Source: Desulfotomaculaceae bacterium (GTDB lineage: Bacteria > Bacillota > Desulfotomaculia > Desulfotomaculales > Pelotomaculaceae). Taken from it: a DNA stretch of 64,000 nt. A program made the translations under genes and the position numbers. The stretch's first letter is position 1. The number at the start of each line of letters is the position of its first letter. This document shows positions 1,081 to 50,316 of the stretch, in pieces. The notes under the pieces are model-generated. The model saw only the letters and a list, made by a program, of their open reading frames with translations, searched no databases and was not told the DNA's origin. Location: the NCBI GenBank assembly GCA_028696455.1, contig JAQVGZ010000001.1, positions 1 to 64,000 on the forward strand, written 5' to 3'.

Positions 1081-1209
1081 TGGTTTTGGATTTCTAGAGG
1101 CCAGTTCTGTGTTGTTTTTGCAATGCAGGCCTGGCCTTACCATATTATGAGAAGGAGGTTGAGCAGAGGGAAAAATATGAGTATGAATGTATATTGAAAG
1201 AAAGGGGGA

Positions 1210-6022: not shown

Positions 6023-6104
6023 ACCTTATTTAGAGATTAATTTTCTTTAATTAGAGGAATTTTAGTATTTATGTAGAAACAAGAATCTAAACCAAAGTAT
6101 AGTA

Positions 6105-6200
6105 AAATTCCTAAACGGCCAGCCTAAGCTATAGGTATGGTTGCCCGTTCGCTAGGGTACTCCGGGAAACTGGTGCGCCTCCCATTGTGGAAAGGAGTTT
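6105..6200 (+). ncRNA. Moco/Tuco riboswitch, copy 2 (first of tandem pair)
   Basis: aattcctaaacggcc...ggtatggttgcccgttcgctagggtactccgggaaactggtgcgcctcccattgtggaaaggagtt; 5' segment diverges from the ctccgagcc form but P1 can still pair. Confidence 0.75.
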
Positions 6201-6220
6201 TGGCTTTATAATTGTGATGT

Positions 6221-6260
6221 AAAGCTTTGACCCTGGCTGCGACTGGGGCAAAGCTTTTTT
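6221..6260 (+). terminator. Intrinsic terminator of riboswitch copy 2
   Basis: aaagctttgaccc...ggggcaaagctttttt. Confidence 0.8.
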
Positions 6261-6268
6261 ATATATTA

Positions 6269-6357
6269 TTCTCTCCGAGCCTTGCAGCCTATAGTGGTTG
6301 CCGGCCGTTAGGGTACATGGGGAAAACCGGTGTGCCTTCCAAAGTGAAAAGGTGAGT
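6269..6357 (+). ncRNA. Moco/Tuco riboswitch, copy 3 (second of tandem pair)
   Basis: ttctctccgagccttgcagcctatagtggttgccggccgttagggtacatggggaaaaccggtgtgccttccaaagtgaaaaggtgag. Confidence 0.8.
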
Positions 6358-6444
6358 AGGAATTGGCGACAATGCCGGGCTGGCTTGCATTTTCACAAAG
6401 CTTACCTGGCATTAGATTTGAAAGAGGCAAATGAAGGATAGCCA

Positions 6445-7011
6445 ATGCTACACAAAATGCTTGATAAGTTTTCCGTTTTCGATTTAATAATCATCGCGAT
6501 GATTTCAGCCCTGGGCGTGGCCAGTAAACCGCTTATAGTACCTCTTTGCCATATTATCACCGGGCCGCTGTTGATTCCCGGCGGGGTGGTGGCAGGTGGT
6601 TTTTACATGTTGTGGCTTGTCCTCGGGGCGGGAATTGTAAGTAAAACGGGAGCAGCCATTATGATTGGGGTTGTGCAGGCGTTAATGGTCTTCGGTTCGG
6701 GGATTTTTGGCTCGCACGGGGCGATGACTCTGCTTAGCTACACCTTACCCGGTCTTGCTGTTGATCTGCTGCTTTACCTGATGGGACATAATGTATGCTG
6801 TCTGCTTTGTGCTTTTCTGGCAGGTCTTGTTGCCAATATCTCAGGCTCGGCCTTAGTAAATATAATTTATTTCCGGCTGCCTTTTGTACCCTTGGTACTT
6901 GCTTTAACGGTGGCAGCTTTATCTGGTGGACTGGGTGGTATTATCGCTTATAAAGTATTGCAACTGGTTAATAAGCATAAGGGCTGGGGGAGTGGTTATT
7001 TTGGCGATTAA
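6445..7011 (+). CDS. ECF transporter S-component (substrate-specificity membrane protein)
   Basis: Small hydrophobic protein DLIIIAMISALGVASKPLIVPLCHIITGPLLIPGGVVAGGFYMLWLVLGAGI..., ECF S-component-like; preceded by tandem Moco riboswitches. Confidence 0.75.
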   Translation: MLHKMLDKFSVFDLIIIAMISALGVASKPLIVPLCHIITGPLLIPGGVVAGGFYMLWLVLGAGIVSKTGAAIMIGVVQALMVFGSGIFGSHGAMTLLSYTLPGLAVDLLLYLMGHNVCCLLCAFLAGLVANISGSALVNIIYFRLPFVPLVLALTVAALSGGLGGIIAYKVLQLVNKHKGWGSGYFGD

Positions 7012-7320
7012 AAGGCAGTGATTTTAATTTGGCCAGCTGACAAATATAGCTGGAAATCCATTATATTATTACAGGCTGACAAGCAGAACGTGGACAAACT
7101 AGCAATGGAAGAGGGCTTCCTATTTGTAACAATTATTTAGTTGCGGAGTGGTTGTACTTCCCTATCCTATGAGGATTATGCTGGAAAAACCCAAATTGTA
7201 AACACTTTTTGATTCTCAAAGAGCGATTGATAATTTTGTTAGAAGTGCTCATCCCTTAATTTATGGGGCTTGGGACTCTCGAATTAAAGCTAGGTTAATT
7301 TTAGACGAGGAGTGTATTCA

Positions 7321-10300
7321 ATGCGGATACGAAGCAAATGGGTCTTTAATACCTTAATGACCTTTTTCAGCGTGCTACTGCTAGTCGGTTCGGTTACCTT
7401 GCTCGCACCCACGGCCGCCCTGGCTATCGGGGACGACTTGATAATATCGGGACCCGGGTTGAATAGCACTGACCCTGTAACCATTACCCAAGACCAACTC
7501 CGGGGTAATCAGACATTATTAGACGGGACTACTTTACAGCAACAAGATGTAATCTACAGCACTATCAACACCTGGCCCACCAAGAGCTGGTACAGGGGGC
7601 AGGGCGTTAAGCTGACCGACCTGCTTGAGGCAGCCGGGGGAATCAAACCGGAGGCTACACAGATTAAATTTACCTCTAGAGATGGTTTTTCAGCGACCTT
7701 TACGGTGGATGAAATATTAAAAGCTCCCCGGTATCGTTTCCCTAACTTCATGAGCACCGGCCTACCCGGCCATCTCCCCGGTGACCCGTCGGGTAAAGAA
7801 TTAGTAGATACCATCATCGCTTACAGGAGCTTCTATGCCCAAAGTTATGATGATATCCTGGATGTGGAAAACTTTAACCGCTCGGATGCCAATCATCTGC
7901 TGTATGGTCAGCGGGCGGTAACCCAGCAGACCAATGCCAGGTTCGCCAAATATGTAAAACAAATCGAGGTGCTTACCGATCCTGCGGCCAAATGGGACAA
8001 TCCCACGATTACTCCGGCGCCTGGTGTGGTACCCGCAGGGACTATGGTTGAAATGCACAGTCCCTTCGACGATGAAGATAAGGTTCACTATACCCTGGAC
8101 GACAGCGTTCCGACCATAGAAAGCCCCATGTACAACTGGATTGCCAAACGGTGGTGGTCTTCAAGATCAGAAGAATTGGACGAAATTAACCACAAAATCG
8201 GTCCTATTAATAGCGACACCATCATCAAAGCCGTTGTCATCGGTCCCGGCCGGTTGGACAGCGACATAGTAACTTTTTCCTACCAGGTACCTGACCCTCC
8301 TGCTTTGACAGCTGATGTTTCAGATAATATAGTAGGGCAGCCGGTGGAGCTCACCTTTACAGACGATGCGGACTGGCGGGCGGCCATCACTAGCGTGAGC
8401 GTAGACGGCGCAGATCTGGTTGACGGTGAATATACGATTTCTGATGGTAAGATTACCATATCCGCAGATGTATTTACTGAAGCTAAAGATTACACTGTTG
8501 TAGTTAAGGCAACCGGGTACGAGGATGCTTGTGTGATGCAGACCATAAGATCAGGATTGCATGCTCCTCCGTCGTTGACGGTTGATGCCCTGGACAACGT
8601 AGTGGGGCAGCCGGTGGAGCTTACCTATACTGATGATGCGGCCTGGCGGGCGGCCATCACCGGCGTGAGCGTGGACGGCACGGACCTGATTGACGGCGAA
8701 TATACGATTTCTGATGGTAAGATTACCATTGCCGCAGATGTATTTACAGAAGCTAAAGATTACACTGTAGTGGTTAAGGCAACCGGGTACGATGACGTCA
8801 GTGTAACGCAGACAATAAGATCAGGATTGCATACTCCCCCGTCGTTGACGGTTGATGCCCTGGACAATGTAGTGGGGCAGCCAGTGGAGTTTACCTTTAG
8901 CGATGATGCGGCCTGGCGTGCGGCCATCACCGGCGTGAGCGTGGACGGCACGGACCTGGTTGACGGCAAATATACGATTTCTGATGGTAAGATTACCATT
9001 GCCGCAGATGTATTTACAGAAGCTAAAGATTACACTGTTGTGGTTAAGGCAACCGGGTATGATGAAGCCTGTGTGACGCAGACAATTAAGGATAAGACGG
9101 GTAATGGCGGCGGTCCAGTCGATCCTGACGAAAAGGTGATCCTGACAATCACAGGGGACGGGGTGCAGACTGAAAAGACATATACGTTGACCCAACTGCA
9201 GGCAATGAAGCAATATCAGCTGGATTACACCGCAATCAACACCTGGCCCAGCAAGAAATGGTATGTAGGGAAAGGTGTTAGCTTGAGAGAACTGCTCAAT
9301 GAGGCAGGGATGAAAAGCAGCGCCAGGCTGATTACATTTACTGCACGCGACGGCTTCAAAAGGACTCTTACGGTACAGGAGTTGCTTAACGACAGCAGGT
9401 ATCGTTTTCCTAACTTTATGGGTGGTGGCTCACATGATGGTGACGGGCATGTACCCGGTTCTTCCGCAGGCAAGGAAAAGGTAGAGCCTATACTCGGACT
9501 GGAAAGCGCTGAAGGAACGCGCGATCCCAGCTATATGAACAGCCTGAATGCCATCCTGCTGATGCTGGGGCAGCGGGCTGTCACCGAACAGACTGGTGAA
9601 TTGTTTGTTAAGAATCTAATAGAAATTGAGGTTTCGACCGAAGCGCCGGACAAGTGGGATAAGCCGGAAGCGGAGCCGGACAGCGGCGAGGTAGCCCCGG
9701 GGACGCTGGTAAAACTGAGCAGTGTGTACAACGATGCTGATAAAATCTATTACACAACGGATGGCAGCAATCCGACCATGGACAGTCCGATGTATAACTG
9801 GATTGCTAGCCGGTGGTGGTCGGCGCGGGCGGATGTTCTGGATAGCATCAATCACCCGATTGAAATTACCAAGGACACCACTATTAAAGCCAAAGTAATC
9901 GGTCCTGGGCGAAGAGACAGCGAGGTCGTTACCTTTACCTACAAAGTGAAGGAAGACCCGATTGAAAGCAGTAAGGTTTCATCCAGTCAAGGAGGCAAAG
10001 TGGAGCACGGCGAAGCCGTCATTGAAATACCGTCTGGAGCGCTGAAAAAAGCTAATGCAGAGCTCGGCATTCAAAAAGTAACCAACCCGCCTGCCGTACC
10101 TTCAGGTTTTAAACTGTTGAGCAGCGTTTATGAGTTCATTGTGGACGGCGAGAAGAGCTACAGCTTTGCCAAGAGCGTGACCATCAAGCTAAGCTTCGAT
10201 CCCAACGCTGTAGATGAGGGTGAGACTCCGTCCATCTACTACTATGACGAAAATCTGGAACACTGGGTGAACATCGGAGGTGAAGTATCCGGTAATACCG

Positions 10301-11298
10301 TTACAGTCCAGGTTGAGCACTTCACCAAGTTTGCCGTCATGGTCGCCGGCAAGCCCGAAATCGCGACCGGACTAATCACGCCCGGTGAAGGCGGTACCGT
10401 AAGTCTTGGCGGTGAAGCTGTCATAGAAATACCTTCCGGTGCGCTGACTGGAACCGGTGCGGTAGAGGTGAAAATTGAGAAAGTTACCGCCCCGCCCGCC
10501 GTGCCTGCAGGGTTCAAGCTGGTCGGCAGTGTGTATGAGTTTAGTGTGGACGGCAAAAGCAACTATAGTTTTGCCAATGATGTAACCATCAAGCTCAGCT
10601 ACGATTCCGGTACTATAAACGGGAACGAGACTCCGGTCGTATACTATTACGATGAAGAACTGGTTGAGTGGGTAAACCTCGGAGGTGAAGTATCCGGCAA
10701 TATAATATCAGTTCAGGTGGACCACTTTACCAAGTTTGCCGTAATGGTCGCTGTTAAAGAACCAATTCTGACAGACATAGACGATCACTGGGCTATGGAC
10801 AACATCAACAAGCTGGTTAGCATGGGGTGCATCAACGGTTATCCCGACGGTACTTTTAAGCCTGACCATCCCATTACCAGGGCTGAATTTGCAACTATAC
10901 TGGTAAAAGCTTTCCAGTTTGAGAACAAGGGCGGCATAGTTTTTGCCGATACCGCTGGGCACTGGGCCAGGGATTATATTGCCATGGCTTCGGCCAACGG
11001 GGTAGTAACCGGTTATGACGACGATACTTTTGGTCCGGATGATCTGATTACCCGCGAACAGATGGCCGTGATGATCGTCAGGGCCGCAAAATTAGCCTCG
11101 GAGGCAGGCGAGACCAGTTTTACTGACAGCGATAATATTTCTCACTGGGCTAAAGATTCCATTGCTATTGCGACGGGGAACGGAATCATGAAAGGATATC
11201 CTGACCACACAGTACGGCCTCAGGACAACGCTACCAGGGCAGAGGCGGTGACGGTCATTATTAATGCCTTGGAGATTAGTTTGTTGAATAGTCAATAA
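7321..11298 (+). CDS. Exported SLH protein with two SUOX/molybdopterin-binding-like domains, chitobiase-C-like domains, three Shr-HID/DUF1533 repeats, two ZU5-like repeats and three SLH domains
   Basis: Signal peptide; YSTINTWPTKSWYRGQGVKLTDLLEAAGG and YTAINTWPSKKWYVGKGVSLRELLNEAG; VHYTLDDSVPTIESPMYNW; LTADVSDNIVGQPVELTFTDDADWRAAITSV repeats; ITRAEFATILVKAF SLH motifs. Start refined from 7312 to ATG 7321. Confidence 0.88.
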   Translation: MRIRSKWVFNTLMTFFSVLLLVGSVTLLAPTAALAIGDDLIISGPGLNSTDPVTITQDQLRGNQTLLDGTTLQQQDVIYSTINTWPTKSWYRGQGVKLTDLLEAAGGIKPEATQIKFTSRDGFSATFTVDEILKAPRYRFPNFMSTGLPGHLPGDPSGKELVDTIIAYRSFYAQSYDDILDVENFNRSDANHLLYGQRAVTQQTNARFAKYVKQIEVLTDPAAKWDNPTITPAPGVVPAGTMVEMHSPFDDEDKVHYTLDDSVPTIESPMYNWIAKRWWSSRSEELDEINHKIGPINSDTIIKAVVIGPGRLDSDIVTFSYQVPDPPALTADVSDNIVGQPVELTFTDDADWRAAITSVSVDGADLVDGEYTISDGKITISADVFTEAKDYTVVVKATGYEDACVMQTIRSGLHAPPSLTVDALDNVVGQPVELTYTDDAAWRAAITGVSVDGTDLIDGEYTISDGKITIAADVFTEAKDYTVVVKATGYDDVSVTQTIRSGLHTPPSLTVDALDNVVGQPVEFTFSDDAAWRAAITGVSVDGTDLVDGKYTISDGKITIAADVFTEAKDYTVVVKATGYDEACVTQTIKDKTGNGGGPVDPDEKVILTITGDGVQTEKTYTLTQLQAMKQYQLDYTAINTWPSKKWYVGKGVSLRELLNEAGMKSSARLITFTARDGFKRTLTVQELLNDSRYRFPNFMGGGSHDGDGHVPGSSAGKEKVEPILGLESAEGTRDPSYMNSLNAILLMLGQRAVTEQTGELFVKNLIEIEVSTEAPDKWDKPEAEPDSGEVAPGTLVKLSSVYNDADKIYYTTDGSNPTMDSPMYNWIASRWWSARADVLDSINHPIEITKDTTIKAKVIGPGRRDSEVVTFTYKVKEDPIESSKVSSSQGGKVEHGEAVIEIPSGALKKANAELGIQKVTNPPAVPSGFKLLSSVYEFIVDGEKSYSFAKSVTIKLSFDPNAVDEGETPSIYYYDENLEHWVNIGGEVSGNTVTVQVEHFTKFAVMVAGKPEIATGLITPGEGGTVSLGGEAVIEIPSGALTGTGAVEVKIEKVTAPPAVPAGFKLVGSVYEFSVDGKSNYSFANDVTIKLSYDSGTINGNETPVVYYYDEELVEWVNLGGEVSGNIISVQVDHFTKFAVMVAVKEPILTDIDDHWAMDNINKLVSMGCINGYPDGTFKPDHPITRAEFATILVKAFQFENKGGIVFADTAGHWARDYIAMASANGVVTGYDDDTFGPDDLITREQMAVMIVRAAKLASEAGETSFTDSDNISHWAKDSIAIATGNGIMKGYPDHTVRPQDNATRAEAVTVIINALEISLLNSQ
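8300..9096 (+). repeat. Three tandem HID/DUF1533-coding repeats, period 270 bp
   Basis: gggcagccggtggag-type motif recurs at 8335, 8605 and 8875 with near-identical flanks (gatggtaagattaccat...gcagatgtatttac...). Confidence 0.9.
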
Positions 11299-11462
11299 CA
11301 CTCATCATGGCTTACCAATGCAGTTAGCGGTAGAGAGGACCAGCGGTCTAAATCATGCATGGGGAGTGTCAGATGCTGTTTGCTCTCAGAACATCACCGG
11401 TATAGGAGACATATCATAAGCGTAAAAGGGATGATACTCCATAGGCAGAAAGGGGACACATC

Positions 11463-13277
11463 ATGAGTGTAAAGGGGATACACCATGGGCAAAAAGACGA
11501 CATAACTCATATAGGGGATTGTCGCCGGACAAATACTCCCGATCGGATGTCGCCGGTGGCATACATACACTTGAATAAGCGATATTACCTGCTCTTGGTG
11601 AACACCCTAGTTATTTTGCTGTTTGCTGCTTTGCTTAATATGACAGCAGCCGGGCTGGCCCTGGCCGATCCGTCTAACTCGGTAGAAATCACCGGTGAGG
11701 GAGTGACGACTCCAGTGACGTTAACCCGTGCTCAACTAGAGGAAATGGAACATTACGAGCATGTGTACAGTGTGATAAACACCTGGCCCACCAAGAAATG
11801 GTATGTAGCTAAAGGAGTAAAACTAAGGGACCTGTTTGATCTGGCGGGGCTTAAAGAAGATGCCACACTGGTTAAATTCACATCAAACGACGGCTTCGAA
11901 GTGACACTTACGGTGCAGCAGCTTTTAAGAGACAAGCGATATTATTTTCCACGTTTAATGGATAATCACCCCAGTGACGGGAGCATTCCCGGATCTCCGG
12001 CGGATGCAATAGAAGTAGAACCAATTCTTGCCCTGGTCAGTGTTGAGGACAGTAATGATCCCAGCCAAATGATTGATAGAGACTCTTTGCTTCTGGTGGT
12101 CGGGCAGCGGGTGGTTACCGAGCAAACGAACCCCTTATTTTTAAAATATGTAAATAAAATAGAGATCCTCACCACTCCTCCACAAAAATGGGATAATCCC
12201 AAGGCCGATATGGAAAGTGGGGAAGTACCCGCAGGGTCTATGATAAAACTGAGCAGCAAGCGTAATGACATGGATAAGATCCATTACACCACGGACGGTA
12301 GTATCCCCACTATAAACAGCCCGGTGTTTAACTGGAGCGCCAGCAGGTGGTGGCCGCTGCGGTCGGATTTGGACAGTGTCAACCAGCCGATACAGATTAA
12401 CGAGGATACCGTGATTAGAGCTATCACCATTGGTCCAGGTAAGCTGGACAGCGACGTCGTTACCTTTACCTACAAAGCTGATTATACCGGCAGAGCGGCC
12501 GAGCGGTTGAGTCAACCGGGCGGGCCACCCACCGTGGTTACCTTGGACCAGAACTCAATCAACCTCAAAATCGGCAGCTCGTACGAGCTGGTAGCTACTG
12601 TCGGCCCGGGTAATGCCATAGACAAGAGCGTGACCTGGAGTTCCAGTGACACCAGTGTGGCTACGGTGGATAACAACGGTCTGGTGACGGTGATCGGGCC
12701 CGGTACGGCCGTCATCACGGTAAGAACAGTCATCGGAAACCTGACTGCCACCTGCGTGGTAAATAGTCCGGACCAGGACAGCAGTGGCTTGATCGCTGAA
12801 CCTGCCGACGCCGTTCCGCAGGATAAAGCGCAGGAAGAGCCGGTGGAGCCGCTAGAGCCGGTACCCGGTGAGCCAACCCTGCCGGAAACGGAGCCGGCTA
12901 CCGCTGCTCTAAATAATGCCGGTGCGGTGCTGGAGCTTTCAGTGCAGGAAACGTCTCCAGAGTTAGAGGAACCTCCCAAGCCGGAGATGCCTTCAGAATT
13001 TGAGGAGTCTCCCGAACAGGAGGAGCTGGTTGAAAACGGACGGTACCTGGTGGAAAAGGAGGTGGTAACGGCTGCTTCAATAACTGCCGATGTTTCTTCG
13101 GAGCAGACGGCCAGCCAACCGGCTCAAGTATTTGAGATGACGGTCGATGCCGGACCAACACAGCTGCATTTGGCGCAGAATAATCTGGATATTTACACGG
13201 CAGGGGTAGGTCTTTTCCTGTTTATTTTCGGTGGAAGTAGAAGGTATATAGAATACGTGAGGGAGGTCACAAGGTGA
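11463..13277 (+). CDS. Membrane-anchored exported protein: SUOX-like domain, chitobiase-C-like, Big2, acidic/Pro-rich linker, C-terminal TM
   Basis: YSVINTWPTKKWYVAKGVKLRDLFDLAG; VTLDQNSINLKIGSSYELVATVGPGNAIDKSVTWSSSDTSVATVDNNGLVTVIGPGTAVITV (Big2); C-terminal LDIYTAGVGLFLFIFGGSRRYIEY. Stop overlaps the next start. Confidence 0.82.
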   Translation: MSVKGIHHGQKDDITHIGDCRRTNTPDRMSPVAYIHLNKRYYLLLVNTLVILLFAALLNMTAAGLALADPSNSVEITGEGVTTPVTLTRAQLEEMEHYEHVYSVINTWPTKKWYVAKGVKLRDLFDLAGLKEDATLVKFTSNDGFEVTLTVQQLLRDKRYYFPRLMDNHPSDGSIPGSPADAIEVEPILALVSVEDSNDPSQMIDRDSLLLVVGQRVVTEQTNPLFLKYVNKIEILTTPPQKWDNPKADMESGEVPAGSMIKLSSKRNDMDKIHYTTDGSIPTINSPVFNWSASRWWPLRSDLDSVNQPIQINEDTVIRAITIGPGKLDSDVVTFTYKADYTGRAAERLSQPGGPPTVVTLDQNSINLKIGSSYELVATVGPGNAIDKSVTWSSSDTSVATVDNNGLVTVIGPGTAVITVRTVIGNLTATCVVNSPDQDSSGLIAEPADAVPQDKAQEEPVEPLEPVPGEPTLPETEPATAALNNAGAVLELSVQETSPELEEPPKPEMPSEFEESPEQEELVENGRYLVEKEVVTAASITADVSSEQTASQPAQVFEMTVDAGPTQLHLAQNNLDIYTAGVGLFLFIFGGSRRYIEYVREVTR

Positions 13278-13930
13278 TAGTTTCTATGTTGGCGCCGCTT
13301 AGAGAGACAATGCATACTATTTCGTCCGGTTTATTGATGCCTACTATTGCCATCCTGCTATTATTATTGGCAGTGTCGGTGATTGAGTTGGGCGGACTGC
13401 TGGTGGAGGCCCTCACTGAGCGGCGCAAGATGAAGATCAGCGTGCCGGACCTGGTTGAATCCTTCCAGGGTAAGAAGGCCGGGGAGATTATGGCTGAAAT
13501 TGAGAAAAGCGGTCTGTTCCGGCGCCAGAAAGCAGCCCTCGGTGAGCTGATCAAGCACAGCAGTTTACCTGCTGCCTCCTTACAGGCCCTGGCCCGCCGG
13601 TTGCTTGCCGGTGAGGATCTGCATTATGCCAGGATCACTACCAGGACTGACTTGGTAGCAAGACTGGGACCCATGTTAGGGCTGATGGCTACGTTGATCC
13701 CGCTGGGACCGGGTATGATTGCCCTGGGTCAGGGTGATACCAAGACCCTGGCCGAATCTCTGCTTACTGCCTTTGACGCTACGGTAGCCGGTCTGGCTGC
13801 AGCCGGCATTGCCTTTGCCATCTCCCGGCTGCGTAAAAGGTGGTATGAGGATTACTTGAATTCCTTGGAGGCCTTGATGGAAAGCTTATTGGAGGTGTTT
13901 GACCGTGGGCGGCGGACTGAGGAGCATTAG
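13274..13930 (+). CDS. MotA/TolQ/ExbB-family proton channel protein
   Basis: ARITTRTDLVARLGPMLGLMATLIPLGPGMIALGQGDTKTLAESLLTAFDATVAGLAAAGIAFAI is ExbB/TolQ-like. Confidence 0.85.
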   Translation: MIVSMLAPLRETMHTISSGLLMPTIAILLLLLAVSVIELGGLLVEALTERRKMKISVPDLVESFQGKKAGEIMAEIEKSGLFRRQKAALGELIKHSSLPAASLQALARRLLAGEDLHYARITTRTDLVARLGPMLGLMATLIPLGPGMIALGQGDTKTLAESLLTAFDATVAGLAAAGIAFAISRLRKRWYEDYLNSLEALMESLLEVFDRGRRTEEH

Positions 13931-14219
13931 GCGCAGGTTGTCTGAAGAGGTCAATCCACTTGATGGCGCGATTAATATCGTGGATGCCATGCTGGTATTT
14001 GCCTGCGGGCTGATGCTCTCTCTGGTGATGCACTGGAATGTCGACCTGGGCCAGATAGGAGAGCGCGTCAACCTGAATCGTGGCCAGGAAGTGACCCAGA
14101 CGCCGGAAATAAGGGAAGACTTGATTGAAACTCAGGGAGAGGGCAAGCTTTACGAAAGGATGGGCACGGTTTATAAAGACCCTGACACAGGGCAGCTGTT
14201 CATGCTAACCAGTGAGTAG
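13905..14219 (+). CDS. DUF2149-family membrane protein (putative ExbD-like partner)
   Basis: EEVNPLDGAINIVDAMLVFACGLMLSLVMHW; GTG 13905 after ggaggtg; overlaps the ExbB-like gene. Confidence 0.75.
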   Translation: MGGGLRSIRRRLSEEVNPLDGAINIVDAMLVFACGLMLSLVMHWNVDLGQIGERVNLNRGQEVTQTPEIREDLIETQGEGKLYERMGTVYKDPDTGQLFMLTSE

Positions 14220-14307
14220 AACAGTATAATGGTCTAACCGGCCAGTGATTATGCTTATATATTACGTATATATGGCAGCTACACTTTATGGAAAGGAGAT
14301 TATTAAA

Positions 14308-15840
14308 ATGATAGTACAAAGGGAAAGGGACACTTCTTTAAAAATGTGTCTGCACTCAAAAAAATGGTTATCCGGTATATTGCTAACCGTCCTGGGTCTA
14401 CTGTTTTTGGGTATGGCAAGCTTGACCACGCCTGCAGTTGCCCTTGCCGCTGACCCGGATACCCTTGAAATCACGGGGGATGGTGTAACTACACCCTTGA
14501 CCTTAACCAGAGCCCAACTGGAAGCAATGCCACAATATCAGCATGTTTACAGCGCCATTAATACTTGGCCTACCAAGAAATGGTATGTTGGTAAGGGAGT
14601 TAAGCTAAGGGACTTATTTGATAAAGCCGGGATGCGCGAGGACGCCAAGCTGATTAGGATAACTTCGCGCGACGGGTATGTAGTGAACCTGACCGTGCAG
14701 GAGTTATTAAGGGACAAACGCTATTATTTCCCGGAACTAAAAGGTGTTGTCGCCAAAGATGGTGACGGGCATCTTCCGGGCTCTCCAGCAAAAGCGCAAG
14801 AGGTAGAACCGATGCTTGCCCTGGTCAGTGTGGAGGGCAGTAACAACCCCGATTATATGAACGATTTGAATTCGCTGCTGCTGATGCTGGGACAAAGGGC
14901 AGTAACCGAACAAAACGGTAATTTATTTAGTAAGTATGTTAATAAGATTGAGGTGCTCACAACAGAGCCGGAAAAATGGGACAGCCCGCAGGCAAATCCG
15001 GAAAGCGGTATCATACCCGCCGGGTCTATGGTGGCACTGAGTAATGCCCACATGGATGACGATAAGATTTATTACACTACCGACGGCAGCACCCCGACTA
15101 TTAACAGCCCGATGTATAACTGGATTGCCAAACGCTGGTGGTCGTCAAGAGCAGATGATTTAGGCAAGATTAATCACCCGATCGGCCCGATTAATGAAAA
15201 TACGACCATCAAGGCCATAACCATTGGCCCAGGTAAGTATAACAGCGATGTGGTCACCTTTACCTATCAGGTTGAAGGGGCTGATCCGGCAGACGAAACG
15301 GAAATAACCACACCCAGCGACCCTTCTTTAAATGACGTTGCCGGCCACTGGGCTCTGGAAAACATTAATCAGCTTGTAAACCTGGGTTGCATCAGCGGTT
15401 ACCCTGACGGCAGCTTCAAACCTAACAGTACTATTACCAGGGCCGAGTATGCCACGGTGCTGGTGAAGGCGTTCAAGCTGCAGAACAATGGCGGGAAGAT
15501 CTTTAACGATACCGTGGCGCACTGGGCCAAAGACTCCATTGCCGCGGCAGCGGCAAATGGCCTGGTCGATGGTTATGCTGACGGTACTTTTGGCCCGGAC
15601 GACCTGATTACCCGCGAACAGATGGCCGTGATGATCGTCAGGGCGGCCAAACTAGCTCCGGCAGCTGAAGAACCCCAGTTTGCCGACAGCGGCGATATAT
15701 CCGTGTGGGCCCGGGAGGCCATTGTCACTGCCACCCAAAACGGGATTATGAAAGGGTATTCGGATAACACCGTCAAGCCCGCGGGCAGCGCGACTAGGGC
15801 TGAAGCGGTAACGGTTATTATCAATGCGTTAAATAAATAG
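14308..15840 (+). CDS. Exported SUOX-like + chitobiase-C-like protein with three SLH domains
   Basis: LEITGDGVTTPLTLTRAQLEAMPQYQHVYSAINTWPTKKWYVGKGVKLRDLFDKAG; three SLH repeats at C-term. Start refined to ATG 14308 after ggaaaggag. Confidence 0.88.
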   Translation: MIVQRERDTSLKMCLHSKKWLSGILLTVLGLLFLGMASLTTPAVALAADPDTLEITGDGVTTPLTLTRAQLEAMPQYQHVYSAINTWPTKKWYVGKGVKLRDLFDKAGMREDAKLIRITSRDGYVVNLTVQELLRDKRYYFPELKGVVAKDGDGHLPGSPAKAQEVEPMLALVSVEGSNNPDYMNDLNSLLLMLGQRAVTEQNGNLFSKYVNKIEVLTTEPEKWDSPQANPESGIIPAGSMVALSNAHMDDDKIYYTTDGSTPTINSPMYNWIAKRWWSSRADDLGKINHPIGPINENTTIKAITIGPGKYNSDVVTFTYQVEGADPADETEITTPSDPSLNDVAGHWALENINQLVNLGCISGYPDGSFKPNSTITRAEYATVLVKAFKLQNNGGKIFNDTVAHWAKDSIAAAAANGLVDGYADGTFGPDDLITREQMAVMIVRAAKLAPAAEEPQFADSGDISVWAREAIVTATQNGIMKGYSDNTVKPAGSATRAEAVTVIINALNK

Positions 15841-15942
15841 AAGATAATTTAAATAATGTCCGGCCCGGCTGGCGCCGGCACCAGCTTACAGCCTTTATGC
15901 CAAGATAAATGATAGTTCCAGGATAAGCGAAGGGATGGCCCA

Positions 15943-16836
15943 ATGAATCTAAAAAGTTTTTTTTCTAAAAACAATTACCTGCTTATTAGCCTGGTGATCA
16001 TATTTTGCGTTTTCTTGACTGCTGCCTGTAATGACAGAGCGGTGCAGGAGCAGGACAGTAGCCAAAATAGTGAACAGTCGGTTTTGGTTACCGGCAACGG
16101 TGTGCGGCAAGAAATCCGGATGAATCTGGAAGAGATGCTGCAGTTGCCCGGCGCCCGCTTTGAGCACGTTTATTCCACCGTAAACAACTGGCCAACCAGG
16201 AAGAAGTATGCGGTGAAGGGCGTTAAGTTGGCAACAGTGCTGCAAGCCGCAGGGATCAAAGACGAAGCGCAGTGCATTACTGTTAAGGGTAAAGACGATT
16301 TCGAGTGGTCCTTTACCCGGGAGCAGTTACTGGATACCCCGAGATTTTATTATCCTGAAGTAATATCTGGAGATCCGTCCGGCGCCGAGCCGGTTGAACC
16401 GGTTATCGCCTACGAGTACATGGAAAATAGTGATGATCTGAGTGAAGCCAGGGCGGACGACTTATGCCTGATCGTGCCACAGGCGTATGTCCATGAGCAA
16501 ACCAACCACACCTTTGTCAAGGGTGTCAGGGAGATCATGGTGACTGTGGAAGACCCGGGAAAATGGGCGCCAGCTACTGTTTTCCCCCAGGCAGGGAAAA
16601 TTACCAGGGGTGATACGGTAAAACTGCAGCATCAGGAAATCGGCAAGGTAAAAATGTATTATACTCTGGACGGCTCAACGCCGAGCGAAAACAGCACTCT
16701 TTATAATCCCAGCACCTATCAGCCTGAGTTGAACAAGCCCATCAGGATAGATGGAGGTACGACGATCAAGGTTTTCGTGCAGGGTTTCGGCAAGTATGAC
16801 AGCGACATAGCCGAGTTTCGCTACCAAATTGAATGA
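15943..16836 (+). CDS. Lipoprotein with SUOX/molybdopterin-binding-like and chitobiase-C-like domains
   Basis: Lipobox FLTAACND; VYSTVNNWPTRKKYAVKGVKLATVLQAAGI; MYYTLDGSTPSENSTLYNPST. Confidence 0.82.
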   Translation: MNLKSFFSKNNYLLISLVIIFCVFLTAACNDRAVQEQDSSQNSEQSVLVTGNGVRQEIRMNLEEMLQLPGARFEHVYSTVNNWPTRKKYAVKGVKLATVLQAAGIKDEAQCITVKGKDDFEWSFTREQLLDTPRFYYPEVISGDPSGAEPVEPVIAYEYMENSDDLSEARADDLCLIVPQAYVHEQTNHTFVKGVREIMVTVEDPGKWAPATVFPQAGKITRGDTVKLQHQEIGKVKMYYTLDGSTPSENSTLYNPSTYQPELNKPIRIDGGTTIKVFVQGFGKYDSDIAEFRYQIE

Positions 16837-16847
16837 ATAAACGTGAG

Positions 16848-16884
16848 CCCGGTAAAAGCCGGTGCCAAACCGGCTTTTACCGGG
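16848..16884 (+). terminator. Terminator-like hairpin
   Basis: cccggtaaaagccgg / ccggcttttaccggg perfect 15-bp stem; no long U-tract. Confidence 0.55.
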
Positions 16885-16923
16885 GCAAGCGGTATAACCT
16901 GTCAAATCTAACAAGGAGGGTGC

Positions 16924-18045
16924 TTGAGTTTGCGAAGAAGCGGCAAGAGTATATCTCTTTATCTTGTTTTATGCATGATTTGTTTTGCCCTGGCCGGATG
17001 TGACCGGCAGGAAGTTGCCGGCGCTCCTAATGCAGAATATGAAGCGCAAAAGATTATCGTTGAAGGCGATATAGAAAACCCCCGGGAAATCACCGTGGGA
17101 GAAATGCGTTCTCTTCCTCAAAAAAAACTGGACGCCAGTCTCACCCGTACCACCGGGCTCCTGGAAGAGTTTAAAGCAACCGGCCCTACCGTTAAGGATG
17201 TCCTGGAGCACATGGGCATCAACTATAAAGATTATAAGGGCATCGGTTTTACCGGAAGGGACAATTATTATTGCCTGGTGACGCCGGAGATTATAGCCGA
17301 ACGGGAGCTGATCCTGGCTTTAACCGTGGACGGGCAAAACGAACTACCGGACGAACTGAGGCCTGCGCGGCTATGCGTGCAGGGGGAGTTTGGCCCCTAT
17401 TGGGTGAAGATGGTCGACAGGATTGTTTTGTACAAGGAGATCCCAGAGAAAGACATTACTTCCGTATGGGTCTTTAAAAACCTGGCGGAAGGGATTGAAC
17501 CGTACCAGTATGAGTATTACGGCAGTAAAGACGACGCCATTGAATTGGCGCAGATCTTTTCCCGCTTTGACAATGTTGACAGCAAGGCCTTCTTCACGAT
17601 GAAATCATCTGATGGCTTTAAGAAAAATGAAGCGATAAACATGGTCAGCCAGCGCTATTACATTAAAGTTTCCGGTGAGGACGCGCCGATGAACATGGCG
17701 CCGAATATAAAACTGGGTATGAACGTCATGCATATTGCCTGGTTTTCCACCAATGCCGATGCGGCAATTTTTCCGGAAGAAATAATTGAATTAACCGGGG
17801 AGCGGCAAGTTGGCGCGCACAAGGGCATTTCTTTAAGTGCCATGCTGGAGGAAATCGGATTGACGGATATTGAGAATAAACAGTTTGAGGTGGTCGGTAC
17901 AGATGGCAATAGTGTTCGGGTAAGCGGCCAGGAGCTGGATAAAGGTATTCTGCTCATCAAAGAGGACGGCTCGTATCCGGTAGTCTGGCATGAGGGAGAA
18001 GGGCTGAAACCCATTGATAACTTGATGCGCCTGCGCCAGCGGTAA
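16924..18045 (+). CDS. Lipoprotein with two SUOX/molybdopterin-binding-like domains
   Basis: Lipobox FALAGCDR; GLLEEFKATGPTVKDVLEHMGINYKDYKGIGFTGRDNYYCLVTPEIIAERELILALTVDGQNELPDELRPARLCVQGEFGPYWVKMVDRIVLY, resembling the oxidoreductase molybdopterin-binding domain. Confidence 0.82.
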   Translation: MSLRRSGKSISLYLVLCMICFALAGCDRQEVAGAPNAEYEAQKIIVEGDIENPREITVGEMRSLPQKKLDASLTRTTGLLEEFKATGPTVKDVLEHMGINYKDYKGIGFTGRDNYYCLVTPEIIAERELILALTVDGQNELPDELRPARLCVQGEFGPYWVKMVDRIVLYKEIPEKDITSVWVFKNLAEGIEPYQYEYYGSKDDAIELAQIFSRFDNVDSKAFFTMKSSDGFKKNEAINMVSQRYYIKVSGEDAPMNMAPNIKLGMNVMHIAWFSTNADAAIFPEEIIELTGERQVGAHKGISLSAMLEEIGLTDIENKQFEVVGTDGNSVRVSGQELDKGILLIKEDGSYPVVWHEGEGLKPIDNLMRLRQR

Positions 18046-18054
18046 GAGGGGAGA

Positions 18055-18963
18055 ATGACAGTGCCAGGGATGCATAAGCTGCTTAAAAAAACAGGTCTGA
18101 TCGCGGTTTGGCTGGCCGCATGCTTAAGCCTTTTGACCGGGTGTCAAGGCCAAAAGGGTGATAAGCCCCCGGATGTAACCCGTAGTGAGCCGGGCGTATT
18201 GATAATCACTGGTAACGGTGTGGATCAGGAATGCAGGTTCACCACCGAGGAGCTAAAAAGTATGGAGGAGGCTTTGGCTGGCGCCTGCTACTCAGCCTTG
18301 AACAACTGGCCGGCAAAAAAATTCATTGTCGGTAAGGGCATAAAGCTTACCCATCTGCTGCAAAAAGCCGGAATAAAAGAAGATGCGCAGACGATCACCG
18401 TCCGGGCGGCAGACGGTTATAGCGCTAGATTTACCATGGAGCAGCTGGAGGAAAAGCGTTTTTGCTTTCCAAACTTGATCGAAGACAGTCCGGCGGAGGC
18501 TGTGGAAGTACCTATGATTTTGGCCTGGGAGTATCAGGAGGATACTACCGATTTGAGCAAGGCCGCCAGTGGTAAATTGCGTCTGATTTTTGGCCAAACC
18601 AGATTGAACGAAGTGGTTACGGCCGCCTTCGTTAAAGATGTAGCAGTCATCGAAGTATCAACAGCGCCGCCTGGTCAATGGAGTGTGGTCTGGGCTGAAC
18701 CGGCTCCGGGGAAGGTGAAGCAGGGAACAGAGGTCATTTTAAGTCATCCCGAGCAGGACCTGGTCAAGATCCATTACACCGTTGACGGGAGTGACCCGGA
18801 TAGAGAAAGCACGGTATATAACCCTAGCACCACCTACTTCCGGCCTGAACTGAACAAGCCGATCCCGGTTGATAAACCAGTTACCATCAAAGCCATTGCC
18901 ATTGGTTTCGGGAAACACAGCAGCCAGGTGGCAACTTTTAAATACGATGTAGAAGAAAATTGA
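18055..18963 (+). CDS. Lipoprotein with SUOX-like and chitobiase-C-like domains
   Basis: Lipobox SLLTGCQG; CYSALNNWPAKKFIVGKGIKLTHLLQKAGI; IHYTVDGSDPDRESTVYNPST. Confidence 0.82.
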   Translation: MTVPGMHKLLKKTGLIAVWLAACLSLLTGCQGQKGDKPPDVTRSEPGVLIITGNGVDQECRFTTEELKSMEEALAGACYSALNNWPAKKFIVGKGIKLTHLLQKAGIKEDAQTITVRAADGYSARFTMEQLEEKRFCFPNLIEDSPAEAVEVPMILAWEYQEDTTDLSKAASGKLRLIFGQTRLNEVVTAAFVKDVAVIEVSTAPPGQWSVVWAEPAPGKVKQGTEVILSHPEQDLVKIHYTVDGSDPDRESTVYNPSTTYFRPELNKPIPVDKPVTIKAIAIGFGKHSSQVATFKYDVEEN

Positions 18964-19057
18964 GAATGTCACCAATAGTAGAGTTCCCTAATGAAGATAA
19001 CAGCATCCGGCGAAACGATGATGCGAAACCTTGGTATCAGATGGGAGTTGGGAAAAT

Positions 19058-19675
19058 GTGCAAAATAAACACGTAGTCTGGATGCTTGCCGCAGCTATCC
19101 TCGTTGTTTTCGTGGTCTGGTACTTTACTGATAATAAAATGACCGCTCCCCAAAAGGAAGCTCTACAGGAGTTACTCCAAAGCGAGCAAGAAATCGCTGA
19201 CGAAGCTATTGAAGGTATTGAACTGCCGGCAGAAATCAAGGAAAAGTTTCCAGCAGTGAAGAAGGGTTTCGTAATAAACTGCGGTGAACAGAAATATTAC
19301 GCTTTTTTATCAAGCCCGCTAGGTTACCGGAGTGCCATTGATCTTTTTATTGTTGTTGATGGTCATAAAAACGAGATGCTGGGAACCAGGGTATTGCAGC
19401 ATGGTGAGACGCCTTTATATGGAGGAGATAGCCTTACCAAAGCCTGGTTTTTAAACCGGTTTAATAACAAAAGCGTCAGCGCTTATTTAAATAGAGTGGT
19501 TCTGGAGCCATCCCAGCCAAATGATATTGTCCAGATAACCTGTGCCACAGTAAGCTCCCAGGCCGTGATCAACGGGGTTAATGCCGCCATGGGGGCCTAT
19601 CGTGAATTGGTCCTGGGAGAGGAAACGCAACCGGTACCCATGAAAGTAGAAGGGTTTGTTACGGAAATCAAGTAA
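19058..19675 (+). CDS. Membrane-anchored FMN-binding domain protein (RnfG/NqrC-like flavin carrier)
   Basis: N-terminal TM; PLYGGDSLTKAWFLNRFNNK...IVQITCATVSSQAVINGVNAAMGAYRE resembles the FMN_bind threonine flavinylation motif. ORF track start 19031; GTG 19058 preferred. Confidence 0.7.
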   Translation: MQNKHVVWMLAAAILVVFVVWYFTDNKMTAPQKEALQELLQSEQEIADEAIEGIELPAEIKEKFPAVKKGFVINCGEQKYYAFLSSPLGYRSAIDLFIVVDGHKNEMLGTRVLQHGETPLYGGDSLTKAWFLNRFNNKSVSAYLNRVVLEPSQPNDIVQITCATVSSQAVINGVNAAMGAYRELVLGEETQPVPMKVEGFVTEIK

Positions 19676-19712
19676 GGGAAAAACCCGGTTACACCTGGAG
19701 GTAGTATTATTG

Positions 19713-20228
19713 ATGGAAAGCAAGGCAGTTGACCAAAAGAAAATCCTCTTTGTGGTGATTGCCCTACTGGTTATTATTATCGCTGTATTTGCTTTTTTGA
19801 ATCGCAGTAACGAAAACCTGCGGGAAGATCAAATCTTGATTAAGTCCGGCGATACTGTTTTCGGTGTCCTGACGGTTGCTGACCTGCAAAAACTACCGGC
19901 GGCGCAAAAGAAAATGGTGGTACAATCCACCAGCGGCATGACCAAACACGAGTTTACCGGTGTATCGCTATTAGATGCCTTAAACAGCATCGATACCGGA
20001 TTGACGCAAAAATACTCCAGGATTATTACCAAAGGCATCGACAACTACACCTCAGGGGTGGAAATGGATGAAGTCCTGCGGCCGAATAATGTGTTTATAG
20101 TGTACGCTGACTATGGGCAACCGTTAAAAACAAAGACCGGTGGGGAGGGAGCTATGCGCATTATTATATACCAGGATGAGTTCGGGCAGCGCTTCACCAA
20201 TTTCCTTACCAGCCTGGAATTGCAGTAA
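19713..20228 (+). CDS. Single-TM anchored SUOX/molybdopterin-binding-like domain protein
   Basis: TM KKILFVVIALLVIIIAVFAFL; HEFTGVSLLDALNSIDTGLTQKYSRIITKGIDNYTSGVEMDEVLRPNNVFIVYADYGQPLKTKTGGEGAMRIIIYQDEFGQRFTNFLTSLEL. Start refined to ATG 19713 after ggaggt. Confidence 0.75.
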   Translation: MESKAVDQKKILFVVIALLVIIIAVFAFLNRSNENLREDQILIKSGDTVFGVLTVADLQKLPAAQKKMVVQSTSGMTKHEFTGVSLLDALNSIDTGLTQKYSRIITKGIDNYTSGVEMDEVLRPNNVFIVYADYGQPLKTKTGGEGAMRIIIYQDEFGQRFTNFLTSLELQ

Positions 20229-20258
20229 AATCTGCCAAGACTAAATCACAAAATTAAA

Positions 20259-20352
20259 TTTTTCCGAGCCGCATGACCTAAAGGTGACTATGGTTATCGG
20301 CCTACAGGGTATGCCGGGAAACTGCCGTACCTCCCATTGTGGAAAGGAAAAG
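20259..20352 (+). ncRNA. Moco/Tuco riboswitch, copy 4
   Basis: ttttccgagccgcatgacctaaaggtgactatggttatcggcctacagggtatgccgggaaactgccgtacctcccattgtggaaaggaaa. Confidence 0.85.
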
Positions 20353-20369
20353 AAGCTGCTTTGATATTG

Positions 20370-25494: not shown

Positions 25495-25566
25495 AAAAAT
25501 ATTTCGGTCGCTTTTTGACAAATATATGCGAATTATTAAAACAGAAAAGACATACAAAGTAAGTAT

Positions 25567-25661
25567 TCTTCCGAGCCAAATAACCTAAGGGAGACTATGG
25601 TTATAGGCCTTTCAGGGTACGCTGGAAAACTGACGTGCCTCCCATTGTGGAAAGGAAAGCT
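25567..25661 (+). ncRNA. Moco/Tuco riboswitch, copy 5
   Basis: ttcttccgagccaaataacctaagggagactatggttataggcctttcagggtacgctggaaaactgacgtgcctcccattgtggaaagga. Confidence 0.85.
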
Positions 25662-25679
25662 AAGCTGCTGTGTTTTAAG

Positions 25680-41480: not shown

Positions 41481-41649
41481 ATCTTAATCAAAAACTGATA
41501 AATTGGCTCATTAATCAATCCAACCCACAGCATCTCAGTGCTGGTCACATTTTAGATCTTACAATAGCATTAATAAAAATGGTAAATATATAATCTTGCT
41601 GGTAATTTTGTAGTATAATAACTAATATAGACGTTTTGCCTAAGTAAAT

Positions 41650-41747
41650 ACTTCTCCGAGTCCAGTTGCCTGTCGTTAATAGCCACGGCAGTTGGGCCTA
41701 CAGGTGTAGTTGGAAACGGGTACACCTCCCATTGCGAAAAGGAGAGA
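41650..41747 (+). ncRNA. Moco/Tuco riboswitch, copy 6 (leader of phosphoesterase-ECF-mobB operon)
   Basis: acttctccgagtccagttgcctgtcgttaatagccacggcagttgggcctacaggtgtagttggaaacgggtacacctcccattgcgaaaaggagag. Confidence 0.78.
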
Positions 41748-41769
41748 CATGATATCATCTGCGCTTATT

Positions 41770-43468: not shown

Positions 43469-44200
43469 TTGGACGCCGTTGTGGTTGACAATCTTTGCTA
43501 TAAATATCAGCCCTCGGGCAGACAAATATTGAAAAACATCAGCTTCAAGGCCGGGCAAGGTGAGATAGTGGCTGTATTGGGTCTCAGTGGCTGCGGTAAA
43601 AGCACCCTGGGTTTATGCCTTGGCGGCATTATACCTCATTACCTGGGGGGTGAGTTGACCGGCCGGGTACAGGTACATGGAATAGAAGTAAAAGACCACA
43701 ATGTGGCCCGGCTGGCGCTGGAAGTGGGACTGGTCTTTCAGGATCCCGAAACGCAGCTTTTTTTACCAACTGTGGAGGATGAAATAGCTTTTGCCCCTGA
43801 AAATCTATGCCTGCCGCCGGAAGAGATAGGCAAGCGGGTTTATGACATGATCAATATGTTAGGTCTTAGTGATATAAGGCAAGCGAATCCAAACCAGTTA
43901 TCCGGAGGCCAAAAACATCTGGTGGCCCTGGGAGCGGTTTTAGCCCTGGAACCCGGTATACTGGTACTGGATGAAGTAATGGCCCAGATGGACTCTACGA
44001 GTAAAAAGAAGATTAAAGACATCCTGGTTAATTTGCGCCTTTACGGCAAAACCATTCTGATTATCGAACATGAACTGGAAAGCCTCTCCATCGCAGATCG
44101 TATTTTAGTGCTGGAGGACGGGGCTTTGATCCGGGATGGACAGGCATCAGAGATAGTAGCGGACGAAGAATTCCTGGCCAGGCAGAAGCTGATGTTTTGA
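43469..44200 (+). CDS. ecfA: ECF transporter ATPase (EcfA-type)
   Basis: GLSGCGKSTLGLCLGGIIPHYLGG; VFQDPETQLFLPTVEDEIAFAPENL; LSGGQKHLVALGAVLALEPGILVLDEV. Confidence 0.88.
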   Translation: MDAVVVDNLCYKYQPSGRQILKNISFKAGQGEIVAVLGLSGCGKSTLGLCLGGIIPHYLGGELTGRVQVHGIEVKDHNVARLALEVGLVFQDPETQLFLPTVEDEIAFAPENLCLPPEEIGKRVYDMINMLGLSDIRQANPNQLSGGQKHLVALGAVLALEPGILVLDEVMAQMDSTSKKKIKDILVNLRLYGKTILIIEHELESLSIADRILVLEDGALIRDGQASEIVADEEFLARQKLMF

Positions 44201-44363
44201 TCACGCTGATGGCGTATAACGCCGCCGGTCCTGGCTAAGGTAATACTACAATTGGAATATTAGAATCTGAAGATAGCAAGTCTCACCGGCGTTCTGGGCT
44301 GACAAGGGCTCGGTATAGGCCAGGTGGTATAGCTAATATTCAATAAATAGCTTGGGGGAACAA

Positions 44364-45032
44364 ATGGCGTTTATAGATCTAATTAACGTTTCTTACAAAT
44401 ACCCCGGTCAACAAAGGACTATTTTACACGACATAAACTTAAGTATCTGGAATAGGGGGTGCACTGCGGTAACTGGGTCGAACGGAAGCGGTAAGACCAC
44501 TCTTTCCAAACTGCTGTTGGGAATATTGACACCGGTAACCGGGCTGGTTAAATTAAACGGGCAACCGCTCACCTCCATGACCCTCCCCCAGATTGGCCGC
44601 CGGATCGGTTATGTTTTTCAAAACCCGGACAGGCAGATATTTTGTGCCACAGTAGAGGAAGAGATTAGCTTTGGCTTGCAGAACCAAGGCCTGTCCCCAG
44701 ACCAAGTGTTGCAAAAAGTAAAGGCTATTTTGGACTACTTTGAGTTGACCCGGTATGCCCATACCTTCCCCCTGGCCTTGAGCGCAGGGGAAAAAAGACG
44801 TCTGGCGATAGCGGCAGTTTTAGCCCTGGAACCGGATTTGCTTGTGCTTGATGAGCCGACCGCGGGCCTGGATCCTTATCGTAAAAGACTGCTTGGCGAT
44901 TATCTGGAAAAGATTATTGCCTCCCACAAGGGTGTAGTAATCATTAGCCACGACCACCAATTCATAGCCAGATATGCGACCAGGTTTATCCGGCTCAAAA
45001 ATGGTCAGGTTGTAGAAGGACAGGGAGCATAA
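44364..45032 (+). CDS. ecfA2: ECF transporter ATPase (EcfA'-type)
   Basis: GSNGSGKTTLSKLLLGIL; VFQNPDRQIFCATVEEEISFGLQN; LSAGEKRRLAIAAVLALEPDLLVLDEPTAGLD. ATG 44364 preferred over 44352. Confidence 0.88.
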   Translation: MAFIDLINVSYKYPGQQRTILHDINLSIWNRGCTAVTGSNGSGKTTLSKLLLGILTPVTGLVKLNGQPLTSMTLPQIGRRIGYVFQNPDRQIFCATVEEEISFGLQNQGLSPDQVLQKVKAILDYFELTRYAHTFPLALSAGEKRRLAIAAVLALEPDLLVLDEPTAGLDPYRKRLLGDYLEKIIASHKGVVIISHDHQFIARYATRFIRLKNGQVVEGQGA

Positions 45033-45034
45033 TC

Positions 45035-45913
45035 ATGAATAAGCTTGATCCCAGGACCAAAATAGTGATCATCCTATGCCTGTCGACCCTGGCCGTGGTA
45101 TTAAATTCACCCATACCGCTGCTAGTATTGTTTGTCTTGACCCTGGTTATCTTGTCCACCTTTCGGATTAATTTTATCGGTATTATGTTTAAATTTAAGA
45201 AATTGTTGCCGTTACTTTTAGTGATGCTTATTGTGCAAAGTGTTTTTGCGGCCGGGGGGGAAACGCTGCTTGCTTACAAAGGCATTAACATCCTGACCTC
45301 AAATGGTTTTAATGCCGCCCTGTGTATTTTATTTAGAATGCTGATCTTATTCAGCTCAGCTATGCTGATCATGACCAGCAGCTCCAAAGATTATGTCCTG
45401 GCCCTGGTGCAGTTAAAAATACCTTACGAGATTGCGTTCATGGTCATGGTGGCCTTTCGCTTTCTGCCTGTTTTCCTGGAAGAAATTAAAGATACCCTGA
45501 TTGCTGTACAGCTCCGTGGTGTTGATTTGAAAAGAATTGCCTGGGGGAATAAAGTTAAGTTTTATACGCATTTTTTTACCCCTTTGCTCTGGAGCGTAAT
45601 GCTCAAGGCCCGGCAGCTGGCCATTACCATGGAAGCAAGGGCGTTTAGAGTATACCGGAGGCGGACTTACTTGCGTGTTCTGCGATACAGCGTGCTGGAT
45701 TATTACGTGATGGCCTTTTTTTTATTAACAACAATAATGGTGCTGTTTTACGTTTCCCTGGACAAATTTTCACCGGGAATCTTTAGCATGACTGATCATT
45801 TCCAATTGTCACCGGGTAAGCCGCTGCTGACGACAGTAGCTTTACCAGTACTTCATTGCCAGAAATATAAAAAATGTCCGGATAGCTGTTCCAGCGGACT
45901 GATTAAGGAGTGA
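45035..45913 (+). CDS. ecfT: ECF transporter transmembrane component (EcfT)
   Basis: KLDPRTKIVIILCLSTLAVVLNSPIPLLVLF...MVMVAFRFLPVFLEEIKDTLIAVQLRGVD...LARQLAITMEARAFR-type coupling motifs. Confidence 0.88.
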   Translation: MNKLDPRTKIVIILCLSTLAVVLNSPIPLLVLFVLTLVILSTFRINFIGIMFKFKKLLPLLLVMLIVQSVFAAGGETLLAYKGINILTSNGFNAALCILFRMLILFSSAMLIMTSSSKDYVLALVQLKIPYEIAFMVMVAFRFLPVFLEEIKDTLIAVQLRGVDLKRIAWGNKVKFYTHFFTPLLWSVMLKARQLAITMEARAFRVYRRRTYLRVLRYSVLDYYVMAFFLLTTIMVLFYVSLDKFSPGIFSMTDHFQLSPGKPLLTTVALPVLHCQKYKKCPDSCSSGLIKE

Positions 45914-49576: not shown

Positions 49577-49593
49577 AGCAAAATAAAGCATTA

Positions 49594-49690
49594 TGTCTCC
49601 TTTCCAACATGGGAGGCAGACCAGTTTCCCGGTGTACCCTAACGGCCAGCAACCATACCTTTCGGCTTAGATTTAACTGGCTCGGAGAAT
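49594..49690 (-). ncRNA. Moco/Tuco riboswitch, copy 7, minus strand, orphan
   Basis: Reverse complement: aattctccgagccagttaaatctaagccgaaaggtatggttgctggccgttagggtacaccgggaaactggtctgcctcccatgttggaaaggagac. Confidence 0.85.
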
Positions 49691-50206
49691 TTATTTAATT
49701 GTATTTAATTGCATTAATATCACTTCTTCATTCCTTTCAAAATTCCTGCTACATAATAATATTCTAAAAAAAATTTTTCCTGTAGAAAAACGATACTACC
49801 ATCACTGTTAACGAGAGTGTTACCGCGATGTTAATAGTGATAGCGCGGTAATGTACTATGAAGCTTTATGTGTAGCTGTAGTCTATATTATATGAGATCA
49901 GTTGGCGGCAGTAATAAAAAAAGCCTCGACTCAGAATGTGTACTGGGTGTCGCTGGTCAAACTAGGTTTTTTCCTAGTTAATAAAGGTTTTACCTCTAAT
50001 AAATCAACCCGAACCACATTTATGGCTTCGGCATTTAGAACTGCAGCCATACTTAATAAAATACCATTATTAGGAAGGGGGCTACGCTATAAAGCTCTGC
50101 AAATAGATTTTTTTATTTTAAACAACATCAGTTAGGATATTCCAAGAAATTATTGCAGGAATTTGTTACTTAATAGTCGAAAAAATAAGCAATAAAGTAC
50201 AAATAA

Positions 50207-50303
50207 TCTCTCCGATCCAAACTACCTAAAGCACTAAAGCAATGGTTTTTGGACGACAGGGTACACCAGGAAACAAGTGTGCCTTCCATTATGAAAAGGA
50301 GAG
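50207..50303 (+). ncRNA. Moco/Tuco riboswitch, copy 8
   Basis: tctctccgatccaaactacctaaagcactaaagcaatggtttttggacgacagggtacaccaggaaacaagtgtgccttccattatgaaaaggagag. Confidence 0.82.
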
Positions 50304-50316
50304 CTGGTTTATAAGT

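Follow-up and report, generated by a model that had tools for sequence, protein, structure and literature searches.

When two riboswitch aptamers of one class stand in series on a single leader, do they answer different signals, act at different steps of expression, or set the same control twice? This question is raised by the leader of an ECF S-component gene in a 64,000-nucleotide stretch of DNA from a Desulfotomaculaceae bacterium (the whole stretch is called the window below). The draft genome of the host comprises 2.69 Mb. Judged by the S-component gene, its nearest named relative is Pelotomaculum sp. PtaB.Bin104 (92% identity; locus L053, apparently the same contig as G002:C210), referred to here as the sister.

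Two aptamers of one type precede the S-component gene

A cmscan search with RF01055 (Rfam Moco RNA, gathering score 36 bits) detected both members of the tandem on the forward strand. Copy 2 (6096-6213) scores 62.1 bits with E = 1.6e-12, and copy 3 (6261-6370) scores 50.3 bits with E = 4.6e-9. Both scores exceed the cut-off, so that the tandem Moco riboswitches of the original prediction are borne out, and copy 2, for which a covariance-model check had been proposed, passes it. The gene that follows on the same strand (6445-7011, 188 aa) was correctly read as an ECF S-component: it matches PF09819 (E = 3.7e-15), and its AlphaFold model (pLDDT 85, pTM 0.80) lies closest to solved S-components, the top match being Bacillus subtilis YkoE (5edl; PMC5037267), with a similar predicted fold at TM 0.71 and 19% identity.

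The covariance-model alignment places a short linker where the P3 stem would stand in both copies, and a comparison of the two for P3 reveals no difference. Presence of P3 is the only published criterion for molybdenum versus tungsten that we found (PMC2408646), the P3-less type having been associated with tungsten-cofactor genes (Regulski et al. 2008, PMC2408646); by this criterion copies 2 and 3 are assigned to the tungsten-cofactor type. In the E. coli Moco RNA, deletion of P3 did not switch specificity (PMC2408646). Both copies probably sense the same ligand, that of the P3-less type, and the shared type is the sole argument for it.

Moco RNAs are abundant in this lineage. Eight lie in the window, the six others at 973-1093, 20250-20365, 25557-25673, 41642-41760, 49581-49699 (reverse strand) and 50198-50317. 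The genome holds 23, which were examined locus by locus; P3 is absent by inspection from 22 of them and present in one (L012). The sister (G002) has 30, with 18 on one contig. Both counts exceed the highest of Regulski et al. 2008, at least 15 in Syntrophomonas wolfei (PMC2408646). Elsewhere, three closely similar Moco RNAs in tandem, each with a terminator, were observed upstream of a TAT-signal molybdopterin oxidoreductase gene (L190, G000:C56:7124-7759, reverse strand).

A diverged aptamer with its own terminator

The conserved core of Moco RNAs consists of GA in J1/2, a P2 with its apical part, a P4 with a GNRA tetraloop, and a 3' GGAAAGG; copy 2 keeps everything except J1/2, which reads UA. 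The 5' segment of copy 2, described earlier as diverged, is TTCCTAAACGG in the alignment where other aptamers have CTCCGAGCC. Its first two P2 pairs are A-U and A-U instead of the G-C and C-G found elsewhere, a compensated change of the closing pairs from GC/GC to AA/UU, and the altered pairs are also present in the sister ortholog (L053). On the alignment, the divergence of copy 2 is mostly this compensated P2 change held in common with its ortholog. The J1/2 GA is nearly invariant in about 165 aptamers and is retained by the sister ortholog of copy 2. Apart from copy 2, UA occurs in just two tandem arrays, both from other genera and with a single such aptamer in each (L167/L178, at G007:C1:1781767-1781886, and L186, on G019:C128), and it may mark duplicated aptamers whose function is relaxed or altered.

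These comparisons bear on the earlier proposal that the two aptamers may discriminate between molybdenum and tungsten cofactors, and on a reading of the pair as a two-input gate. The GA-to-UA change at an almost invariant site would suit such a gate, as would the presence of both a MOT1 molybdate transporter and a TupA-like tungstate transporter in the window. However, P3 is missing from both copies, the P2 change is compensatory and common to the ortholog, and that ortholog retains the J1/2 GA. Nothing in our analysis ties the 5' divergence of copy 2 to metal choice, and we consider discrimination between the two cofactors very improbable.

Downstream of copy 2, an intrinsic terminator is predicted at 6221-6260 on the forward strand, with arms at 6221-6233 and 6245-6257, a GC core at 6224-6254 and a U-tract at 6255-6260. 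Its U-tail score of 4.37 (d = +9.9) agrees with the claim that copy 2 carries a U-tract terminator of its own. A competing antiterminator (6188-6244) is predicted to pair the 3' strand of the aptamer (6188-6213) with the 5' arm of the terminator (6216-6244) at -17.6 kcal/mol; equally strong pairing arose in 32/2000 and 8/2000 shuffles. Nearly every Moco RNA in the host genome likewise has its own downstream terminator.

Upstream of copy 2, an inverted repeat (6055-6068/6099-6112, 93% over 14 nt) offers a possible pairing between upstream sequence and the 5' strand of the copy 2 P1; it has no counterpart at the equivalent place in L053. A promoter search returned a single weak consensus match, no better than in shuffled sequences.

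A degenerate aptamer attached to a terminator-family hairpin

Copy 3 departs from its relatives more deeply. Among 20 aligned aptamers it is the only one that misses the P2 apex (12 columns) and the only one whose GAAA loop carries an additional A, giving a GAAAA pentaloop; a U-U mismatch interrupts its P1. These lesions are known from one draft assembly. The sister ortholog of copy 3 has an intact P2 apex, no extra loop A and no P1 mismatch, and identity to the sister ortholog is 76% for copy 3 versus 85% for copy 2. On these comparisons copy 3 is the more degenerate copy and presumably the weaker aptamer. A GAAAA pentaloop can still take a GNRA-like fold, and unusual P2 tips occur in other aptamers of the genome too, so ligand binding by copy 3 could persist.

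The hairpin after copy 3 (6371-6413, forward strand) has a 9-bp outer stem and an inner stem, with a predicted energy of about -18 kcal/mol, and is followed by AGATTTG. Its U-tail score is 1.92, in keeping with the earlier remark that this hairpin lacks a good U-tract. For their best hairpin, the other Moco leaders of the genome score 2.7-5.3 with one exception, and copy 3 ranks second lowest among all; the lower value, 1.73, belongs to the tupA-like leader L016. The U-tail of the sister copy 3 hairpin is also weak (2.03). Because weak U-tracts recur in the sister copy 3 and in L016, a classical U-tract may be dispensable for this sub-platform. The leader of the TupA-like gene (window 1093-1140) shares the platform type of copy 3, has an equally poor U-tract and is followed at a short distance by AAGGAGG; it is a better place in the window than copy 3 to seek a non-classical platform.

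To which platform does the copy 3 hairpin belong? Aptamers ending in GAAAAGG often have a downstream hairpin whose loop complements that end, and 12 such leaders, from the family of the host and other families of the order, were aligned. The hairpin stem is paired in 88% of cells, with 4 pairs changed on both sides, and its covariation score was reached by 0/500 shuffles. The competing antiterminator helix is paired in 87% of cells, versus 42-56% when slid, and at its columns 15/68 copy 3 and its ortholog have U-A in place of C-G. As the shuffle control for antiterminator covariation was weak (26/500 and 20/500), covariation alone is no proof of this helix. In copy 3 itself, the antiterminator (6342-6398), which is part of the minimum free energy structure of the leader, is predicted to join the 3' strand of the aptamer (6342-6360) to the 5' arm and loop of the hairpin (6380-6398); equally strong pairing was obtained in 30/2000 and 16/2000 shuffles. 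For both window copies the antiterminator pairing thus lies above about 98-99.6% of dinucleotide shuffles. Most members of the platform family have a better U-tract. Judged from the aligned leaders, the copy 3 hairpin corresponds in position and form to the terminators of this family and is a member or descendant of a conserved terminator/antiterminator family; its own U-tract is eroded.

The family also bears on the history of the array. Two single Moco RNAs with the copy 3 platform and U-rich tails (L118 and L068) lie upstream of orthologous S-component genes, L068 being at a contig end, where a further copy upstream is possible. These leaders suggest that the copy 3 type is ancestral for the S-component gene and that the lineage of the host genome and PtaB.Bin104 gained copy 2 in addition, as sampled by few genomes. 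Recent tandem duplication was ruled out as the origin of the array: each copy finds its best match in the corresponding copy of the sister and not in its tandem partner, and the platform types of copies 2 and 3 differ.

It is possible, if doubtful, that both copies are fully functional and that two terminators together sharpen the response in a pseudo-cooperative manner, in which case the weak U-tract after copy 3 would suffice, perhaps with the aid of NusA or NusG. Such a leader would share the form of its relatives, since among 13 resolved tandem arrays of the bacterial family all but one have, after the last aptamer, a hairpin with a U-tail of at least 2.9, and the exception is the ortholog of the window array. 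The antiterminator of copy 3 has also been retained. Against full function stand the lesions of the copy 3 aptamer and the rank of its U-tail within the genome.

Accessibility of the ribosome-binding site

The original prediction placed translational control after termination. A leader of this kind, in which copy 2 stops transcription and copy 3 governs ribosome access to the S-component mRNA, could account for the poor U-tract and for a hairpin that ends just 31 nt upstream of the start codon, and it has a precedent in the SAM-II/SAM-V tandem (PMC9481103). However, the Shine-Dalgarno site GAAGGA (6433-6438, forward strand) lies outside the hairpin. Structure modelling predicts it to be 73-85% unpaired with the antiterminator formed, with the hairpin formed, or with P1 and hairpin enforced together. 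In the sister (L053) the orthologous hairpin ends at 2722 and the gene starts near 2995, about 270 nt away, with a separate Shine-Dalgarno site. Most members of the platform family also carry the U-tracts of transcription terminators. Sequestration of the ribosome site by the copy 3 hairpin was set aside on the predicted accessibility and the hairpin-gene distance in the sister. A translational effect of copy 3 is unlikely on the modelled structures, and we hold out little prospect for a leader that combines the two mechanisms; the first half of the proposal, a terminator after copy 2, stands.

Proposed control of the S-component gene

We favour, with fair confidence, a leader that turns the gene OFF at two successive transcription checkpoints, both answering to one ligand and the second weakened. 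Binding of a molybdo- or tungsto-pterin cofactor would hold the 3' strand of the copy 2 aptamer in P1, so that the 5' arm of the terminator (6221-6260) would be left free and transcription would stop. When ligand is absent, this 3' strand would pair with the terminator arm and polymerase would read on. The scheme is built on aptamers, terminator, hairpin, competing pairings and an S-component fold that come from sequence and models, from which we infer the ligand, the switching and the efficiency of termination. Copy 3 would be the older switch of the S-component gene and follow the same logic, its 3' strand (6342-6360) pairing either in the aptamer or with the hairpin arm and loop (6380-6398). 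With no P2 apex in the aptamer and most of the U-tract lost from the hairpin, copy 3 would be weakened in the host species, and some loss of function is presumed. The sister retains the tandem, the copy 2 terminator and the copy 3 hairpin (L053). The target of repression by both copies would be an ECF S-component connected with Mo/W cofactor metabolism.

The arrangement itself is already known: P3-less arrays were described in 2008 (PMC2408646) and tandems surveyed in 2022 (PMC9481103), and the window adds an example. As in the window, the triple P3-less array of S. wolfei places serial Moco RNAs before Mo/W-related and unknown genes, the first copies being followed by terminators and the last by no obvious one (Regulski et al. 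2008, PMC2408646); a steeper response was the proposed outcome. It differs in having three copies and a seven-gene operon, whereas the window has two copies of different platform types and an ECF S-component. The 2022 survey also covers leaders that repeat one class, and it counted Moco tandems as pseudo-cooperative (13 doublets, 2 triplets, plus Wco tandems; PMC9481103). The platforms of the members were not worked out there, whereas that of copy 3 is compared here over 12 leaders. The SAM-II/SAM-V tandem resembles the window in that its first unit is a transcription terminator; unlike in that tandem (PMC9481103), no ribosome-site sequestration was found by prediction for the second unit here.

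The S-component and its genomic setting

The window genes around the S-component include MOT1, molbindin, TupA-like and WtpC-like genes, and these neighbours point to Mo/W metabolism. A Moco RNA at 41642-41760 (forward strand, RF01055 54.5 bits) stands ahead of an operon with an ECF A-A-T module at 43469-46677 on the same strand, in which Pfam matches identify ABC ATPases (43469-44200 and 44352-45032), a CbiQ-type T component (45035-45913) and MobB (45910-46677). This module is a probable partner of the S-component; in relatives (L054-L056) the S-component gene adjoins two ATPases and a CbiQ-type T component. Among 40 loci scanned (L053-L093), from Clostridia and Halanaerobiales, 27 have a Moco RNA at most 3 kb upstream of the S-component homolog. 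At PF09819 S-component loci, an ApbE or Oxidored_molyb gene often lies between the Moco RNA and the S-component.

The window also holds a run of surface proteins (7312-20228) that combine weak matches to Oxidored_molyb (PF00174) with Fn3_assoc, SLH or Shr-like domains. In an unaligned comparison, their stretch xxINTWPTK seems not to contain the cysteine that serves catalysis in sulfite oxidases, and these proteins may therefore bind cofactor without catalysis.

YkoE, which we take to belong to the same Pfam family, is a thiamine-related vitamin transporter, whereas the context of the window gene is one of Moco RNAs, MobB and Mo/W transporters, which makes a different substrate probable. A literature search, with most subscription journals beyond reach, found no publication that places a Mo/W ECF transporter under the control of Moco RNAs. 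As a speculation that we hold with low confidence, the S-component could be part of an as yet uncharacterised ECF transporter, controlled by Moco/Wco RNAs in Clostridia and relatives, whose cargo is a pterin precursor or the molybdo- or tungsto-pterin cofactor itself and not the bare oxyanion. If so, the tandem switch would be end-product feedback on the transporter. The recurrence of this PF09819 family behind Moco RNAs and its adjacency to MobB make it a candidate Mo- or W-related uptake system, and the lineage, which often uses serial Moco RNAs, is a good place to test what a second copy contributes.
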